A stretch of DNA of 35,606 nucleotides from Candidatus Gastranaerophilales bacterium (lineage in GTDB: Bacteria > Cyanobacteriota > Vampirovibrionia > Gastranaerophilales > Gastranaerophilaceae). Shown in pieces: positions 5,493 through 35,606 of this stretch (positions are counted from its first letter, which is position 1; each line of letters opens with the position of its first letter). The notes under the pieces were generated by a model. It saw only the letters and a list, made by a program, of their open reading frames with translations. It was not told where the DNA came from and searched no databases. The translations under genes and the position numbers were made by a program. Location: positions 1-35,606 of the forward strand of contig CALUQO010000028.1 in assembly GCA_944322935.1 (NCBI GenBank), read 5' to 3'.

Positions 5493-6842
5493 CTAAATAT
5501 CTACGGGAGCCATCATTTGAATAAGCGTACTGATTGTTGTTTCCATTGTTACGGAATCTGAAACTCTCTGCTGCAAAAATGCGTTAATCTGCGGCATCAT
5601 CTCGATTGCAATATCCAATCTTGGGTTAGAGCCTGCAACATACATACCTACATCGATTAAGTCTTTATTTTCCCGATACAAAGCCATTGCACGACGCATT
5701 TTTGCCGCCGCCTCTTTGTGTTCAGGCGTTGCAATAGCCGACATAAGACGGGAAATACTTCCCAATATATCAATAGCGGGATAATGGTTCATCTCCGCAA
5801 CTTTACGGCTTAAGAAAATGTGACCGTCGGTAATACCGCGCACCGTATCTACGATTGGGTCATTGATATCATCACCCTCCATAAGCACCGTATAAAGTGC
5901 GGTAATAGAGCCCTTTGGGCTGTTGCCGGCACGCTCGAGCACTTTTTGAAGCCACGAGAAAATAGAAGGCGGATAACCTTTCATGGTTGGCGGCTCGCCG
6001 ATTGACAGCCCTACTTCACGTCCCGCCATTGCACAACGTGTAACTGTATCTGTCATCAAGAAAACTTTTTTGCCCTTGTCCCTAAAGTATTCACAAACTG
6101 AAGTTGCAGCTTGCAAACACTTTTGTCGAATCAACGGAGGCTGGTCGCCCGTTGAGCAGACAAGCACGGATTTTTTCATACCCTCTTCACCGAGAGAATC
6201 TTCAATAAACTCTTTTACCTCTCTGCCGCGTTCTCCAATCAGCGCAACCACGTTTACGTCAGCATCAGAGTTTCTTGCTATCATACCGAGCATTGTACTT
6301 TTACCAACGCCGGAACCGGCAAAAAGCCCCATACGCTGTCCTGCACCCATTGTTAAAGTAGCATCTATCGCCCTTACTCCGGTTGAAAACATTGTATTAA
6401 TAATAGGTCTGTCAAAAGGGCTGGGCGCGGGGCCGTCAATAGAAACAAATGAAGCGTTTGATGTATCAAGCGGCTTGCCGTCTATGGGTTCGCCCATGGG
6501 GCTTATCAATCTGCCCAGCAAAAAATCTCCAACAGGCAGCATTATCGGTTTTCCGACCGTCTGCACAAGGCTACCCTGACCTATTCCCGCTCCGTCATAT
6601 AACAAAAGCAGCTGTGCTGTATCACCTTTAAAAGCAACAACCTCGGCCGGCTTTTTTTCGCCCGTATAAGTTTCGATAAAACACAAATCACCTATTTTCA
6701 GTCCCGGAAGTTTTACCTCAACCGTCAGCCCCAGAAGTTTTGATACAGAGCCTTTATACTGATACATAGGAGTAGAGTCTATTATTTCATAGGCTCTTTT
6801 TTTCATGTATTCAATTGAACGCTCAGTTGATTGCTCAAGCAT
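5493..6842 (-). CDS. fliI: Flagellar export ATPase FliI
   Basis: A 449-residue, full-length type III export ATPase. The Walker A motif GSGVGKST lies at ~176-183, Walker B in KKVFLMTDT (~255), and the family hallmarks GERGREVKEFIED, STGDQPPLIRQKC and ALYTVLMEGDD are all present. It powers unfolding and export of flagellar parts at the base of the export gate. The start ATG follows AAGGAT and lies 12 bp after the flhA stop, so it is the last gene of the fliF-fliI operon. FliI and the non-flagellar SctN are hard to tell apart by sequence alone; the neighbouring FliF with its FliG-binding tail supports the flagellar reading. Confidence 0.93.
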   Translation of the reverse strand: MLEQSTERSIEYMKKRAYEIIDSTPMYQYKGSVSKLLGLTVEVKLPGLKIGDLCFIETYTGEKKPAEVVAFKGDTAQLLLLYDGAGIGQGSLVQTVGKPIMLPVGDFLLGRLISPMGEPIDGKPLDTSNASFVSIDGPAPSPFDRPIINTMFSTGVRAIDATLTMGAGQRMGLFAGSGVGKSTMLGMIARNSDADVNVVALIGERGREVKEFIEDSLGEEGMKKSVLVCSTGDQPPLIRQKCLQAATSVCEYFRDKGKKVFLMTDTVTRCAMAGREVGLSIGEPPTMKGYPPSIFSWLQKVLERAGNSPKGSITALYTVLMEGDDINDPIVDTVRGITDGHIFLSRKVAEMNHYPAIDILGSISRLMSAIATPEHKEAAAKMRRAMALYRENKDLIDVGMYVAGSNPRLDIAIEMMPQINAFLQQRVSDSVTMETTISTLIQMMAPVDI

Positions 6843-6854
6843 AATAGTTAATCC

Positions 6855-8951
6855 TTATTGATAATCAGGTGAGTACATTTCTCCGATTGTATCAACAGCT
6901 TCCACTTTAATATCGGTAATAAGTTCACTGTAAGAAATAACAACGATTGTCGGAATATGTCTTTCAAGCAGCTGGTACAATGGCAGCCTTATTCTCGGAG
7001 AACAAAGGATAACAGGCTGTCGGCCCACCGTCTGGTGAGCTCTCATAAGGGTCGATGCCGTTGTTTCAATAAGTTCCTGCACCTGCATGGGGTTTAACAA
7101 AAACATTGTCCCCAGCTCCGTTCTCTGGCAGCTGTCATCAAGAGTTTTTTCCCATTCGCTTGAAAGTGTCAACGCGTATAAAACTTTATCTTCCGTGCAG
7201 TTTGACAAACAAATCTGTCGACCTAATGCGGCTCTGATACGCTCAGAAAGAATATCCGGCTCTTTGGAAAATCTGGCGTAGTCGCATAACCTTTCAAAGA
7301 TAAAGATAATATCTTTTATGGAAACTTTTTCTCTAATCAGGTTAACAAAGATTTTTCTCAAATCACTTGTTGAAATAATTGCGGGAACAAGGTCGTTGAC
7401 AAGAGTCGGGTCTTGAGATTTAACAAGTTCCATGAGTTTAAGCACGTCAGTTTTTGTCATAACCTCATCAACATATTTTCTTACGCACTCTTGCAGGTGT
7501 GTAACAATTACGTCAACCGAATCAACAGCTGTCAGATGGTCGTTTTCATCAATCTGTGAAGGGTCAACCCAGTACGCGTTGGCCTGATATGTCGGGTCAA
7601 GATTTACAATTGTATCAGGCGGGGTCGGTTTGCCTGTTGCATCCCATTGGTCTGCAAGAATCATACGTTTGCCCGGATACACAAAACCGTTGGCAACCTT
7701 GTTGCCGCGAATGGAAATCAAATACTCATTGGCATCAAGTGCCGAAGAGTCCATAATTCTTATGTTAGGAATGATATAACCGAGTTCATCTGTTACACGT
7801 TGACGCAAAGCTGCAATTTTAGCAAGAAGCTGGCCTTCCTGATCAGGGTCAGCAATAGGCAGCAAGCCCGAACCAACCTGCAAACTCAATACGTCAACCC
7901 CCAAACGCTCATACATTTTATTGGGGTTAACAAGGTCTTGCATATTCTGTTTAACATTTTCCAATTGCCCCAACTGCGCCTGAACATCCTGATTTATCAA
8001 AACAGAGAATGCGGCAATTGTGATGATAATTGCAAATACCGTAAACGGAAACCACGGCAGCCCCGTCCAATGGCTTGTTACTGCAATCAAAAGCAAAAAA
8101 CCGACAGCACAGAACAAACTCATAGGTTTGCTCAAAATCTGTCCGGCAACATCTGTTGCCAAGCTCGGGCTGGCTGCTGATGCACGGGTCATTACGATAC
8201 CGGCAGAGATAGCCATTAGCAGTGACGGAACCTGAGAAGATAAACCGTCACCTATTGTTAAGATCGTATATTTTGAAACAGCATCGCCGACCGGCAGACC
8301 CTGCTGCAAAACCCCGATACACAAACCGCCGATGATGTTGATGATAACGATAATAATACCCGCCATCGTATCACCTTTTACAAACTTCATGGCACCATCC
8401 ATTGAACCGAATAAAGCAGATTCTCTTTGCAAGTCTTCACGTCTTTTTACCGCTTCATCAGGAGAAATCAAACCCGCGTTAAAATCAGCGTCAATTGTCA
8501 TCTGTTTACCCGGCATAGCGTCTAAGGCAAACCTTGCGGAAACCTCGGCAATACGTTCGGCACCCTTTGTAATAACCATAAACTGAACAATTGTGATGAT
8601 GATAAATATTACACCGCCTACAACCATATTACCGCCGGTTACGAAAGTACCAAAAGCGTGAATAACCTCACCTGCCTCGCCTTTGGCAAGGATAAGTCTT
8701 GTTGATGCAATACTTAATACAAGACGAAACATTGTACCGATAAGGATAATAGAAGGAAATGCCGCCAACTCCAACGGTTTTTGGATATACAACGATATCA
8801 TCAAAAGCACGATACCGAGGGTTATGTTTAGAGATATTGAAAAGTTAATAATCCAGGTAGGCACTTCTATAAGCAGGATAAGTATCAGCGCTACAACAAA
8901 TATCGCCAAAGATAATTCAGTTAATGTATTTGAGCGTTGTACACCTGCCAT
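6855..8951 (-). CDS. flhA: Flagellar export gate protein FlhA
   Basis: A 698-residue, full-length FHIPEP-family protein. About the first 320 residues hold the eight expected membrane helices; the cytoplasmic loop has the family signature FGSMDGAMKFVKGDT (~181-195); the C-terminal half is the cytoplasmic docking domain that forms the nonameric ring and receives export chaperones. The start ATG shares one base with the fliH stop (TAATG), so the two are translationally coupled. Gene order fliH-flhA-fliI differs from the usual fliF-G-H-I order by the insertion of flhA. Confidence 0.95.
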   Translation of the reverse strand: MAGVQRSNTLTELSLAIFVVALILILLIEVPTWIINFSISLNITLGIVLLMISLYIQKPLELAAFPSIILIGTMFRLVLSIASTRLILAKGEAGEVIHAFGTFVTGGNMVVGGVIFIIITIVQFMVITKGAERIAEVSARFALDAMPGKQMTIDADFNAGLISPDEAVKRREDLQRESALFGSMDGAMKFVKGDTMAGIIIVIINIIGGLCIGVLQQGLPVGDAVSKYTILTIGDGLSSQVPSLLMAISAGIVMTRASAASPSLATDVAGQILSKPMSLFCAVGFLLLIAVTSHWTGLPWFPFTVFAIIITIAAFSVLINQDVQAQLGQLENVKQNMQDLVNPNKMYERLGVDVLSLQVGSGLLPIADPDQEGQLLAKIAALRQRVTDELGYIIPNIRIMDSSALDANEYLISIRGNKVANGFVYPGKRMILADQWDATGKPTPPDTIVNLDPTYQANAYWVDPSQIDENDHLTAVDSVDVIVTHLQECVRKYVDEVMTKTDVLKLMELVKSQDPTLVNDLVPAIISTSDLRKIFVNLIREKVSIKDIIFIFERLCDYARFSKEPDILSERIRAALGRQICLSNCTEDKVLYALTLSSEWEKTLDDSCQRTELGTMFLLNPMQVQELIETTASTLMRAHQTVGRQPVILCSPRIRLPLYQLLERHIPTIVVISYSELITDIKVEAVDTIGEMYSPDYQ

Positions 8952-9730
8952 TATATTTGTTTAAATGCCTCCTTGATTAGTTCAAGCTGTGTTTTTATAT
9001 TTGCGTCTATAATCCCGTTTGATGTTTCAATAATTGCGGAACCTTCTTCCACATCTTTATCTCCGGTTACATAAATTTTAGCCTCAAGCTGTCCGGACGA
9101 CAAAAGATTGGGAACAATATCTTTTGTGTATTCCACATCGGTCGGATTTACTTTAAGTATAATTTTATTTTCGTCTTTAGCAAGGCTTTTTAATGCGTCT
9201 TTAACAATATTGTCAAGAATTGTTTTATCACTTGCGACTTCTTTTTTTATGATTTTTTCCGCAACCCTCAGCGATATATCGAGAATATCTTCAGATATTT
9301 TTTTATAAACTACATCCTTGTAAGAGAAAAATTCCTCTATCGCATGTTTTAGGGTTTTAACAGAGGAATGGGCCTCTACAAGACCTTTCTCGTAACCTTC
9401 TTTTGAGGCTTGTTCCTTGATTGCAATGGCCTCTTGCTGTGCACGGGAAATTAAATTTCTGTCATCAATACGGCGGTATCCGCGTCTTCTGTCTCCGCGG
9501 CGTCTTTCCGCTCTTTGATTAAAATCAATTTCATCAAAGTTAAACCCCGCAAATATATCTGTTTTATCCTCTTTTTTTTCAGGTTCAGCTTCTTTTGGCG
9601 CAGCAGTTTCAACAGTCTCTGGCTGTTGAGGCTGTTCTTTTATTTCCGGCGCTGTTTCCGGAGCCGGAGCTGGTGTTTGGGTTATTTTAGGTTTTACAAC
9701 TTTTTTTTGATTGTATCTTTTTATTATCAT
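8951..9730 (-). CDS. fliH: Flagellar export regulator FliH
   Basis: A 259-residue FliH/SctL-type stalk protein. Residues ~12-55 are rich in Pro, Glu, Gln and Lys; a very basic patch (QRAERRRGDRRRGYRRIDDR) follows near residue 77; then comes the helical EQASKEGYEKGLVEA segment typical of FliH and a C-terminal ATPase-binding domain ending in SNGIIDANIKTQLELIKEAF. FliH holds FliI and couples it to the C-ring. The Pro-rich and Arg-rich N-terminus is longer than usual. GCAGGAT precedes the ATG by about 11 bases; it begins 25 bp after the FliG-like gene. Confidence 0.88.
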   Translation of the reverse strand: MIIKRYNQKKVVKPKITQTPAPAPETAPEIKEQPQQPETVETAAPKEAEPEKKEDKTDIFAGFNFDEIDFNQRAERRRGDRRRGYRRIDDRNLISRAQQEAIAIKEQASKEGYEKGLVEAHSSVKTLKHAIEEFFSYKDVVYKKISEDILDISLRVAEKIIKKEVASDKTILDNIVKDALKSLAKDENKIILKVNPTDVEYTKDIVPNLLSSGQLEAKIYVTGDKDVEEGSAIIETSNGIIDANIKTQLELIKEAFKQI

Positions 9731-9755
9731 CCGTTAATTTATCCTGCAGGTGCTA

Positions 9756-10775
9756 TTAACGACGTGTTAATTTTTCTTCAAGGTGATTACATATAATATC
9801 CGCAATCCGTGGTGTTATAGGCGAATTCTTATTACCTGAAGAGACATTTGCAACATAATCGCGTATTGCTTTGCGCTCTTTACCAATAATATTCGAAATT
9901 TTGGAAATATCCGAATTTTTTACAATATTATATAATTTTTTATTTATCCTTGCCGGATTAATTTTTTTTGACTTAGGCAAAGAGTTTTTTATTTCCTTTA
10001 ATCCTTTGGCAAGAATATTAGGGTCGAGCGATGTTTCCAAATCCTCTTTGGCCGCATAATCCAAAAGAACTGCCGCATCCTTTTCGTCAAACCTTTCAAT
10101 AAGACTCTGTCTTTTCTCAGGCGGAAGATGTTTTAAAACAATTGCGAAGGTAGCAAGTTTAAGGATTCTTGTGTTATTCATCTGGTTTATATATTCATTC
10201 CCGGATGCATCACCAGCTTGAGCCTGCTGCGCCTGTTGTTGAGCCTGTTGTTGAGCCTGCTGCTGTGCTTGCAGTTCTGCCTGCTGCTGAGTCATTTCAT
10301 CTATATTGGAATGGCTTAATGCCTCTTGAACCTGTGCATCGTTTAATATACCTCTGTTTTTTAATTCGTCCAACGCTTCATTGTAAGCTTTTTTTACCTG
10401 AAATTCCACAATTGCAAGGATATCACCCTGCGACATATTCTTGATGGTTGCAGTTTTTGCTATCTCAAATATGGTAAAAGCCACCTTTTGCAAAATACCG
10501 TCTCTGAATTGAGGGTCGATGTTGCTTCTTATAATATCGATAGCTTTGTGAAACGTCCATTCGCCGATAAGCTGTGTAATAATAGAAGCCTGATTGGCAT
10601 CAAGAGTTACCTTTGTGTCATTAGCAAGCGCCTCACCTGCCATGTAACAAAAATTGTGAACGGTATTGACAATATATTGCCTGTCGGGGTCCGCAATATC
10701 CGGCGGCAATGCCGGCCCGACCTGTTCGGCAAGATTTTTTGCAAATGCTTTATAATCAAAACCTTGTATTGGCAA
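9756..10775 (-). CDS. Divergent FliG-like protein (by position)
   Basis: A 339-residue protein, the usual FliG length, located between fliF and fliH, where fliG normally lies. Sequence similarity to FliG is weak. Residues ~205-265 (ILKLATFAIVLKHLPPEKRQ...) resemble the FliG middle-domain pattern in which an AxVLxxLPPEK helix is followed by a Glu/Leu-rich helix. The N-terminal ~150 residues do not look like FliG-N, and a Gln/Ala-rich linker (QAQQQAQQQAQQQAQQAQ, ~167-185) separates the halves. The start is TTG at 10775, chosen because GGGGGAGA lies five bases upstream (10781-10788). If it is FliG it forms the rotor C-ring; otherwise it is a lineage-specific C-ring adaptor. The torque-helix charges cannot be confirmed by eye. 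Confidence 0.65.
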   Translation of the reverse strand: MPIQGFDYKAFAKNLAEQVGPALPPDIADPDRQYIVNTVHNFCYMAGEALANDTKVTLDANQASIITQLIGEWTFHKAIDIIRSNIDPQFRDGILQKVAFTIFEIAKTATIKNMSQGDILAIVEFQVKKAYNEALDELKNRGILNDAQVQEALSHSNIDEMTQQQAELQAQQQAQQQAQQQAQQAQAGDASGNEYINQMNNTRILKLATFAIVLKHLPPEKRQSLIERFDEKDAAVLLDYAAKEDLETSLDPNILAKGLKEIKNSLPKSKKINPARINKKLYNIVKNSDISKISNIIGKERKAIRDYVANVSSGNKNSPITPRIADIICNHLEEKLTRR

Positions 10776-10880
10776 TTTATTCTCCCCCTGTTTTGTTTTG
10801 GTAAATTTTTATTCCGCTCTGCTGTTGTTTTTTACTCTCATAAAATGTGACATTCAGTCACTTTTCATTCAACAGAGTGC

Positions 10881-11317
10881 CGCTGTTATTATGTTGCGCC
10901 CTCCCTGACTTGACCTGCGTCAAGTCCATTCGGGCTTCACACCGGCTTACGCCTTTTTTTGCTCCTGTGGGCTTCGGACTTCCGTCCTGCAGTCCTACGT
11001 CGCTGTTATTATGTTCCGCTTTTTCGGTCTTTCACTTCTGAAAGCCCTGCAAAGCTTCACATCGGCTTACGCCTTTTTTTGCTCCTGTGGGCTTCGGACT
11101 TCCGTCCTGCAGTCCTACGTCGCTGTTATTATGTTCCGCTTTTTCGGTCTTTCACTTCTGAAAGCCCTGCAAAGCTTCACATCGGCTTACGCCTTTTTTT
11201 GCTCCTGTGGGCTTCGGACTTTCGTCCTGCAGTCCTACGTCGCTGTTATTATGTTGCGCCCTCCCTGACTTGACCTGCGTCAAGTCCATTCGGGCTTCAC
11301 ACCGGCTTACGCCTTTT
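10881..11317. repeat. 120-bp tandem palindrome array inside the flagellar operon
   Basis: The word CGCTGTTATTATGTT begins at 10881, 11001, 11121 and 11241, exactly 120 bp apart; the fourth unit is partial. Units 1 and 4 carry one central module with the palindrome GACTTGAC/GTCAAGTC, units 2 and 3 another of equal length with CTTTCA/TGAAAG, giving the order A-B-B-A. All full units share TTTGCTCCTGTGGGCTTC and TCCTACGTCGCTG around a GGAC/GTCC hairpin. The whole gap 10776-11438 has no credible gene; the plus-strand open frames there only mirror the repeat. The right part (11318-11438) holds further short inverted repeats. Confidence 0.92.
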
Positions 11318-11438
11318 CCCGCCTGTCAAATCATAGATTTGTCCGCTACGGTAATAAATTACCTTCGCAACGGCGGTCACTAAAGGTTCCGGCTTTAATG
11401 TCTTTCAGCAATGAAAGCCACTAAAGCCTTCACACAAG

Positions 11439-13067
11439 TTAACTTTTCTCAATCCAGCTTTTAACGTGGTCGGCCACATCTTCGTTTTCGAGTCCTTCGA
11501 GTTCTGCAGCGATATCAGCTAAAGTTGCATTGAGTTCGGGTATGGTCTGTCTTGCCTGTTTTTGTTCAAGCATACCCTGTGCCAGCTGGGTTTGTCTTTC
11601 GATAAGCTCAGCCGCTTTAAGATTTACATCTCGTATTTGTTTTTCCTGATCTTGAGTTTTTTCTCTGAGCATTTCAATTTCTTCTTTCTGTTTTTGTTGG
11701 GCTGCCTTAACCCTGTCGGACAGGAATTTAAGCCCTACGCCAAGTCCTATAAGAATCATTGCGATGGCAATCCACCACGGGTTGCCTGTTGAATCAGGTT
11801 TAGGCAAAGATTCAGGTTTATCTCCGGCAAGGAACGGGTCAACGGAATCAGAAAACGCAATTTCAACATTTTCCGGTTTTGCTTTTGGTGAAGCTGCTTT
11901 AGCTACCAAAACTTTTAACTCTTCCAAAGTCATATTAGCGGGAATTGCACTTTCTTCAAGGGTTACGGCTATAGAAATATCTTCAATTGTACCGGGTTTA
12001 ACAAGCTCACTTGTCTGAATCTTAGGTACACCGTATTGAGATTCTCTTGCAGTTCTTGAATAGCTTCTATTCTGTGCCGAATCAGCGTTGTTGGCGGGTA
12101 ATCCGTTAGGCAGGTATACGCTGACCGCACTTATTCCCTTATTTGTATCTCTTGTCTGGTCGCCCAAACCTTCAGAAAAAGTTTGTTCTGTCAAAGAAGT
12201 TTTCTTTGTCGGGTCAAAGTCTATGGCATCCTTTTGCATAGGAGACTGTCTTAAATACGTACTGACAGTCACGGCATAGTTGCCTTTGCCTATTAATTTA
12301 TCCAGCTGGGTTTTAACTTTTGCCTGCATGTACTGGTCGTTTTCTTCCAGTTTTGCAAGCATGTCGTCATCCGCAGAGGCTATAGAGTCATAGACATTGC
12401 CGTTTGTATCGGTAATTGAAATATTTTCGGCATCCAATCCGTTTACGGAACCCAATAGCAAGTTTCTTATCGCTTTAACCTTCATGTTATCGAGTTTTTC
12501 GCCGCTTGGCATAACAATTTGAACAGTTGCAGTAATAGGTTTTTGGTCCTGTTCAAACATTACCTGTTCCGGTATGGAAACAAAAACAGAGGCATTTTCT
12601 ATAGGCGGGATTTTTCTTATCAAACGTGATAACTCGCCGTTGATTGCACGTGTAAGACGGATTCTCTTATCTTCTTTTGTTGAAGTAAAGTCGCCTTTGT
12701 CAAATATTTCAAGCCCTATATTCTGGTCAACAAGACCGCTTTTTACAATGGCAAGAAGAGCTCTGTCTCTTTGTGTCATTGTATATTTTTTCAAATACAA
12801 TACGGATTTCTGACCGTCCATACGTCTGTCGGCAGTGATACCTTCTCTTGCGAGAAGTGCCTGTATTTCAATTGCTTTACCGAGGTTATCCGTTGTCAAA
12901 AGGTCAAGAGGCTGGTCTATAACTTTTTCTTTTACCGCTTTAGGGCCGCCGGAATTGTTGGAAGACGCAACAATTCCCACTGTAATAAACAGTGCCAGAA
13001 CGACGATGAGTCCCCCTATTATCCCATAAAGTAATGGCTTATTTGCGAGTATCTTTTGAAAATCCAT
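11439..13067 (-). CDS. fliF: Flagellar MS-ring protein FliF
   Basis: A 542-residue FliF. The first membrane helix (LLYGIIGGLIVVLALFITVGIV) is at ~12-34, the ring-building domain with QALLAREGI and the conserved ASVFVSIPE follows (~145-180), then a low-complexity periplasmic region, the second helix (WWIAIAMILIGLGVGLKFL, ~430), a coiled coil rich in Gln/Lys/Glu, and an acidic C-terminal end with NEDVADHVKSWIEKS. That end matches the FliG-binding tail of flagellar FliF and is absent from the type III secretion counterpart SctJ. FliF forms the ring in the inner membrane on which rotor and export gate assemble. GGCAGGA lies 11 bases before the ATG. First gene of the operon. Confidence 0.93.
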   Translation of the reverse strand: MDFQKILANKPLLYGIIGGLIVVLALFITVGIVASSNNSGGPKAVKEKVIDQPLDLLTTDNLGKAIEIQALLAREGITADRRMDGQKSVLYLKKYTMTQRDRALLAIVKSGLVDQNIGLEIFDKGDFTSTKEDKRIRLTRAINGELSRLIRKIPPIENASVFVSIPEQVMFEQDQKPITATVQIVMPSGEKLDNMKVKAIRNLLLGSVNGLDAENISITDTNGNVYDSIASADDDMLAKLEENDQYMQAKVKTQLDKLIGKGNYAVTVSTYLRQSPMQKDAIDFDPTKKTSLTEQTFSEGLGDQTRDTNKGISAVSVYLPNGLPANNADSAQNRSYSRTARESQYGVPKIQTSELVKPGTIEDISIAVTLEESAIPANMTLEELKVLVAKAASPKAKPENVEIAFSDSVDPFLAGDKPESLPKPDSTGNPWWIAIAMILIGLGVGLKFLSDRVKAAQQKQKEEIEMLREKTQDQEKQIRDVNLKAAELIERQTQLAQGMLEQKQARQTIPELNATLADIAAELEGLENEDVADHVKSWIEKS

Positions 13068-35193: not shown

Positions 35194-35210
35194 CTTTATT
35201 AGATATGCCC

Positions 35211-35606
35211 GCCGTTGTGAGATAAATGAAATTTATCGAACGAAGCAATCTTTGATTGCACAGGCGGAAAAAATATAAGGTGTGTGAAACTCGCAGGGGT
35301 TCGAGAACTCGAAGCCCGAAGAGTGTAACCGTTCCAAACCGCCGTTGTGAGATAAATGAAATTTATCGAACGAAGCAATCTCTGATTGCACAGGCGGAAA
35401 AAAATATAAGGTGTGTGAAACTCGCAGGGGTTCGAGAACTCGAAGCCCGAAGAGTGTAACCGTTCCAAACCGCCGTTGTGAGATAAATGAAATTTATCGA
35501 ACGAAGCAATCTCTGATTGCACAGGCGGAAAAAAATATAAGGTGTGTGAAACTCGCAGGGGTTCGAGAACTCGAAGCCCGAAGAGTGTAACCGTTCCAAA
35601 CCGCCG
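35211..35606. repeat. 130-131-bp tandem palindrome array at the window end
   Basis: GCCGTTGTGAGATAAATG begins at 35211, 35341 and 35472, and the next unit starts at 35603, so three units (130, 131, 131 bp) are seen and the array continues beyond the window. Each unit holds GATAAAT/ATTTATC, GCAATC/GATTGC and TTCGAG/CTCGAA hairpins; CCGCC...GGCGG can close the first two into a larger fold. The first unit differs in one hairpin loop (TTT against TCT) and an A-run by one base. Open frames across the array on either strand mirror the period and are not taken as genes. Confidence 0.92.

Follow-up and report, generated by a model that had tools for sequence, protein, structure and literature searches.

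A bipartite structured repeat at stop codons of core genes in the Gastranaerophilales, expanded between fliF and a FliG-like gene: a probable cis-acting mRNA element

RESULTS

A 120-bp array between fliF and a FliG-like gene

The window, i.e. the whole stretch of 35,606 nucleotides that was analysed, belongs to a Candidatus Gastranaerophilales MAG (2.3 Mb in 76 contigs). An array of hairpins occupies the gap between a fliF-type MS-ring gene and a FliG-like gene (Table 1). An earlier note on this DNA had correctly placed it between these genes, but they are located on the minus strand and the sense direction runs from fliF to the FliG-like gene, for which no Pfam or NCBIfam match was found. Two distant FliF genes were present in most genomes of the order searched: the FliF of the window (region 5493-13067) groups with FliH, a FHIPEP protein and the FliG-like protein, and the other (G000:C8:47683-50000) sits with a recognisable FliG.

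Table 1. Coordinates of the arrays, their hairpins and the flanking genes in the window
Feature	Position	Strand	Evidence
FliG-like gene, downstream of array	9756..10775	-	label from the earlier note
Unrelated palindromic repeat GCACTCTG...TGAGAG, where the last module III is expected	10806..10880	-	sequence
120-bp array, hairpin I + module III units, cores A-B-B-A	10881..11317	-	TRF, repeat finder, unit comparison
Hairpin I core A, last in sense order	10891..10952	-	model R1, 77.3 bits
Hairpin I core B	11011..11072	-	model R1, 82 bits
Hairpin I core B	11131..11192	-	model R1, 82 bits
Module III hairpin GCGACGTAGG...ACAGGAGC between cores A and B	11201..11243	-	pattern scan, fold
Further module III hairpins, like form	about 11081-11123 and 10961-11003	-	pattern scan, fold
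Hairpin I core A, first A copy in sense order	11251..11312	-	model R1, 77.3 bits
Module II, three-way junction CCGCC...GGCGG	11319..11376	-	model R2, 74 bits; family covariation
Fifth hairpin I, overlapping the fliF stop codon	11384..11443	-	model R1, 26.7 bits; compensatory changes in orthologous copies
fliF-type MS-ring gene, upstream of array	11439..13067	-	PF01514 and PF08345
Second array, module II + hairpin I, period 131, contig end	35209..35593 (to 35606)	+	repeat finder, models R1 and R2

TRF and a repeat finder both detected the period of 120 (spacing 120/120), and comparison of the units confirmed the four units and the core order A-B-B-A described previously; in a MAG, however many copies are counted could reflect an estimate by the assembly. 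Units 1 and 4 were identical over the shared 77 nt, units 2 and 3 exhibited one difference in 120, and the 22 positions that differ between A and B units all fell within one block of ~47 nt between nearly identical linkers, so that an A-B-B-A order with cores of equal length holds. This order is the same in both reading directions. The extent originally given for the array is accurate for the 120-bp repeat, but a three-way-junction module and a fifth hairpin carry the structure on from 11317 to 11443, as far as the fliF stop codon. The palindrome beyond the opposite end of the array, ACTCTGCCGA...TGAGAGG (10806-10880), has similar copies in L008 and L120 (about 2240-2300), inside or replacing the second module.

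On the sense RNA, each unit consists of a mini-hairpin (GGC-GUAA-GCC), hairpin I and a second hairpin (GCGACGUAGG...ACAGGAGC). Hairpin I has the layout GUGU / 3x3 loop GAA-GMA / outer stem / symmetric loop / inner hairpin / ... ACAU, with G-N-A-G or GAAC as the commonest loop of the inner hairpin. The outer and inner stems are GCCC/GGGC and GACUUGAC/GUCAAGUC in core A, and GCUUU/AAAGC and CUUUCA/UGAAAG in core B. Folding of four stretches of the array produced structures that each outperformed 200/200 shuffles (z -3.9 to -4.8). The cores had been regarded as two unrelated versions of equal length; the equal length stands, but 20 of 40 positions are identical in an ungapped comparison (shuffle p 0.0012) and both cores follow one scheme of outer stem, symmetric loop and inner hairpin. 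A and B are diverged members of a single hairpin family.

Both contig ends fall in similar arrays. The array at 35209-35606 has another outer stem (ACTC/GAGT), yet its inner hairpin is of the type found in the C8 (tsf) array. At the other end (63-721), a 273-bp tandem array adjoins a tRNA gene (708-779, minus) and its units combine a tRNA 3'-end-like sequence with a hairpin that has the module III frame GACGTAGG...ACAGGAGC.

A bipartite element with covarying stems

In most copies compared, from the window's genus and from other genera, the element consists of an imperfect hairpin of variable sequence (module I) followed 7 nt downstream by a structured module II/III. Module II is a three-way junction with the scheme CCGCC-GUUGY-GA-(hairpin)-GA-RCgAAC-(hairpin)-ACA-GGCGG; a kink-turn was considered for this module and dropped, a 5-bp stem with a bulged G fitting nearly all variants.

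Compensatory changes were observed in both modules. For module I (12 sequences), 11 pairs had double changes, with 35 cells as compared to 11.5 after shuffling (0/500), and for module II (18 sequences) the values were 10 pairs and 47 cells as compared to 14.4 (0/500). Slid controls gave far lower covariation for both modules. The signal was weaker but still positive at a single orthologous site: the long stem of the fliF-proximal copy is kept in six species with compensatory changes at 4 pairs. Stem mismatches on the sense strand comprised 16 G-U and 1 A-C, and the sense RNA of hairpin I folded better than the antisense in 104 of 110 distinct copies. These two biases indicate an RNA structure; because the structure was taken from the sense strand and the copies are partly related, they are supportive rather than independent proof. 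An intrinsic terminator was ruled out, as A-runs and not U-runs follow the hairpins on the sense strand. No match for the element was found above the gathering threshold among 4227 Rfam families (the window gave only a tRNA and six further loci nothing), and no sub-threshold match was credible.

Distribution and placement at stop codons

The distribution of the element was examined by model searches and in a 400-kb genome sample. Model R1 detected 1-22 copies per genome in 19/19 genomes of the genus searched. With model R2, 87 of the 192 sampled genomes of the order proved positive for module II; they represent 21 of 45 genera and contain as many as 27 copies each, although counts from MAG assemblies may be inaccurate. 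When 292 genomes were sampled evenly across the phylum, all 64 positives were within the order and none outside it. The literature searched contained no paper on such repeats in Gastranaerophilales or Melainabacteria.

Clusters of the element started at a sense stop codon in 62 of 80 cases as compared to 5.2 expected, with orthologous copies pooled and genes called by open reading frame. The same placement was seen at loci that module II alone had identified in other genera (28/43 at a sense stop, 5.4 expected; 4 antisense). Distances to the stop peaked at -6 (where the stop is the UAA of GCGUAAGC), -3 and +3, and in many copies, though not all, the element itself supplies the stop codon. An in-frame rule for these distances (multiples of 3) was seen in the pooled counts and was set aside, the independent genes being too few. 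Short spacers are an insufficient explanation for stop proximity: four genes (thyX, tsf, tpiA and one that is yraN-like) are followed by copies that begin at their stop with the next ORF ~190-1400 nt off. Upstream genes were mostly translation and core genes (rpsJ, rplC, rplN, rplE, rplW, rplB, rplF, rpsH, rpsM, rpsK, rpmJ, rplJ, rplK, rpsB, nusG, tsf, groES, atpD, atpC, accA, metK, tpiA, thyX and fliF), eight of these names having been checked with NCBIfam, FliF also with Pfam and the rest read from the sequences.

On single contigs (G016:C18, G009:C24, G008:C14), oppositely oriented copies are separated by 7-15 kb and each is sense to its own gene, so that orientation follows transcription and not replication, and an insertion bias for one replication strand is ruled out. 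The sense orientation, the start at stop codons and the family-wide spread all go beyond what the earlier note had seen.

The leader of ssrA (tmRNA) carries the element in six genomes of the genus and one of another genus. In the ssrA leaders of L146, L157, L159, L161, L122 and L167, the elements are bracketed by a repeated tmRNA 5' region (two copies, e.g. AAATTTCTCTTTAAATATGGGGACGTTTTG in L157), as though part of the tmRNA promoter/5' end had been copied along with the element.

Turnover of cores and sites

The fliF gap was compared between species. Where FliF identity is 96-98%, the gap contains A-III-B' (G007), B-III-A-II-partial (G016), B-III-A-II-chimera (G009; 5' half of A joined to 3' half of B), B alone (L041) or no element; more distant species (G003, L053, L055) carry other cores. 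Inner hairpin types were found with several outer stems. At rpsK-rpsD in 16 species, the element was present in 5, unrelated structured repeats in 8 and no recognised repeat in 3 (spacers of 26-79 nt). These unrelated repeats each begin at the rpsK stop codon and have the form TCTCT...GTCATTCCG...GTGACG or CGGATTTTG...AATAATCCAAG (L227, L230, L233, L235, L237, L241 and L240, L242).

Judging by these comparisons, cores and copies turn over by recombination, gain and loss with fold and position kept. The core swap suggested previously is thus upheld as exchange or diversification of hairpins by the fliF gaps of related species and the G009 chimera, but there is no indication of a dedicated system for cassette exchange. 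As relatives carry the same cores in other numbers and orders, together with one A/B chimera, ordinary recombination explains A-B-B-A, which is one product of such turnover and for which special cassette machinery is unneeded.

DISCUSSION

The array downstream of fliF is best explained as a bipartite structured RNA element that has expanded locally. This element most likely acts in cis, at 3' ends or between cistrons of mRNA, a reading to which we assign a probability of about 0.6. The element should be present in mRNA because it is in sense orientation, lies at the stop that ends the upstream gene and is mostly inside operons. In a polycistronic mRNA, it would act in cis on the upstream cistron, at its 3' end. 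There it would either set how stable the upstream message is, by forming a barrier to decay or a site of processing, or influence the terminating ribosome and the coupling to the next gene, as is thought for stop-proximal repeat hairpins elsewhere; REP hairpins near stop codons reportedly affect translation. A and B would then be two members of one hairpin family whose equal length is kept by their shared fold, and A-B-B-A would have arisen by recombination between array units via the nearly identical linkers. Thus, the repeat probably serves as a signal for message processing or translation and not as a special recombination cassette. A wider version of this reading, in which a lineage-wide RNA element at the stops of ribosomal-protein and core genes and in the tmRNA leader acts on the terminating ribosome (stalling, recycling, coupling) as a shared post-transcriptional circuit and copies itself to further stops, is speculative and rather improbable.

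The main rival is selfish palindromic repeat DNA (REP/MITE-like), mobilised in trans by a transposase and devoid of RNA function, whose sense and stop bias would reflect tolerated insertion sites. Dispersal to many genes, patchy occupation of sites and the replacement of the element by unrelated structured repeats at one spacer are all consistent with this explanation; as occupancy is patchy, no single site requires the element, which may in part be selfish. A genuine RAYT is present in G000 (NF047646, 131 bits) and within the genus RAYT carriers hold more copies, but this correlation failed to hold in 40 further genomes, in which a RAYT above the cut-off was found in 8/20 high-copy and 6/20 zero-copy genomes, and RAYT was rejected as the driver. 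Moreover, the RAYT loci (L082 at G000:C7:23766-24128, L080 and L176) are flanked by palindromes of their own, GTAGGTTGGGG...CCCCAAC, which differ from the element and are apparently the cognate REP of the lineage. Wholly selfish DNA is also difficult to reconcile with the unconserved GTAG/CGTC tag, the strand-specific excess of G-U pairs and an orientation that is almost only sense even with downstream spacers of hundreds of nt, and we consider it unlikely.

Two other explanations invoke special machinery. Programmed recombination, in which a dedicated cassette-exchange system swaps hairpin cores between fixed flanks, would account for the equal-length exchange of A and B, the G009 chimera and the pairing of inner hairpin types with several outer stems. 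The relatedness of the cores, which are diverged versions of a single fold, the variation of length elsewhere in the family and linkers similar enough to permit ordinary unequal recombination make such a system very unlikely, and a recombinase gene next to the array was not seen in the window; the equal length of A and B follows from their common fold architecture. An RNA-mediated mobile element targeted to transcripts or stop codons (e.g. by a reverse-transcriptase route) would account for the copying as well as for the sense, stop-proximal placement, including the start at stop codons of elements without a stop of their own and the location of the ssrA element between two ssrA 5'-end copies. 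A non-systematic look found neither a link to a reverse transcriptase nor a target-site duplication rule, many sites (rpsK, rplN and rpsJ across species) appear to be vertically inherited, and this route too is very unlikely.

The preferred reading, a cis-acting mRNA element, adds a covariation-supported and lineage-restricted RNA element in gut bacteria known mainly from metagenomes. Presence of the element in one species and absence from a close relative at fliF and rpsK provides a natural test system, in which comparison reads the effect on the operon, and the placement at stop codons of ribosomal-protein genes makes the role of stop-proximal hairpins in translation and mRNA decay directly testable.

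Comparison with known repeats

REP/BIME sequences are GTAG- and CGTC-tagged palindromes with the unpaired tag at one end (PMC3733652). They resemble the element in being short imperfect palindromes between genes with fixed-spacer clusters and variable stems (PMC3733652), but the element has two modules 7 nt apart, a three-way junction and up to about 27 copies per genome. Its arrays are head-to-tail and almost only sense, whereas REP dimers are mostly HH/TT and rarely HT. Hairpin I lacks GTAG/CGTC and the corresponding position of module II/III reads GTAG, GTAA, GTTG, GTTA or GTGG; the RAYT association of REPs is likewise absent from the genomes compared above (8/20 vs 6/20, with another palindrome at the RAYT flanks). 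BOX elements of Streptococcus share the modular intergenic layout, their internal modules varying in number, and differ in modules and hosts.

The stem-loop repeats Ype (Yersinia) and Efa (Enterococcus) prefer the 3' ends of CDSs and were proposed, on preliminary data, to stabilise cotranscribed mRNA (PMC1590033). The element exhibits the same 3'-end preference (62/80 and 28/43 clusters at sense stops) and, by comparison of descriptions, differs in being located at the stop codon itself and in a second module that may be a three-way junction; for a stabilising effect, its side of the comparison consists of sense folding and wobble bias. The TAACTGA repeats of Beggiatoaceae are intergenic direct repeats, some of them in ribosomal-protein operons, with a suspected post-transcriptional role (PMC4679880), but these are short heptamers mainly just upstream of start codons. 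Among such systems, the repeat described here is a previously unnamed, lineage-specific, covariation-supported bipartite intergenic palindromic/mosaic repeat, and it is unusual in its near-strict sense orientation and its start at the stop codons of core genes.
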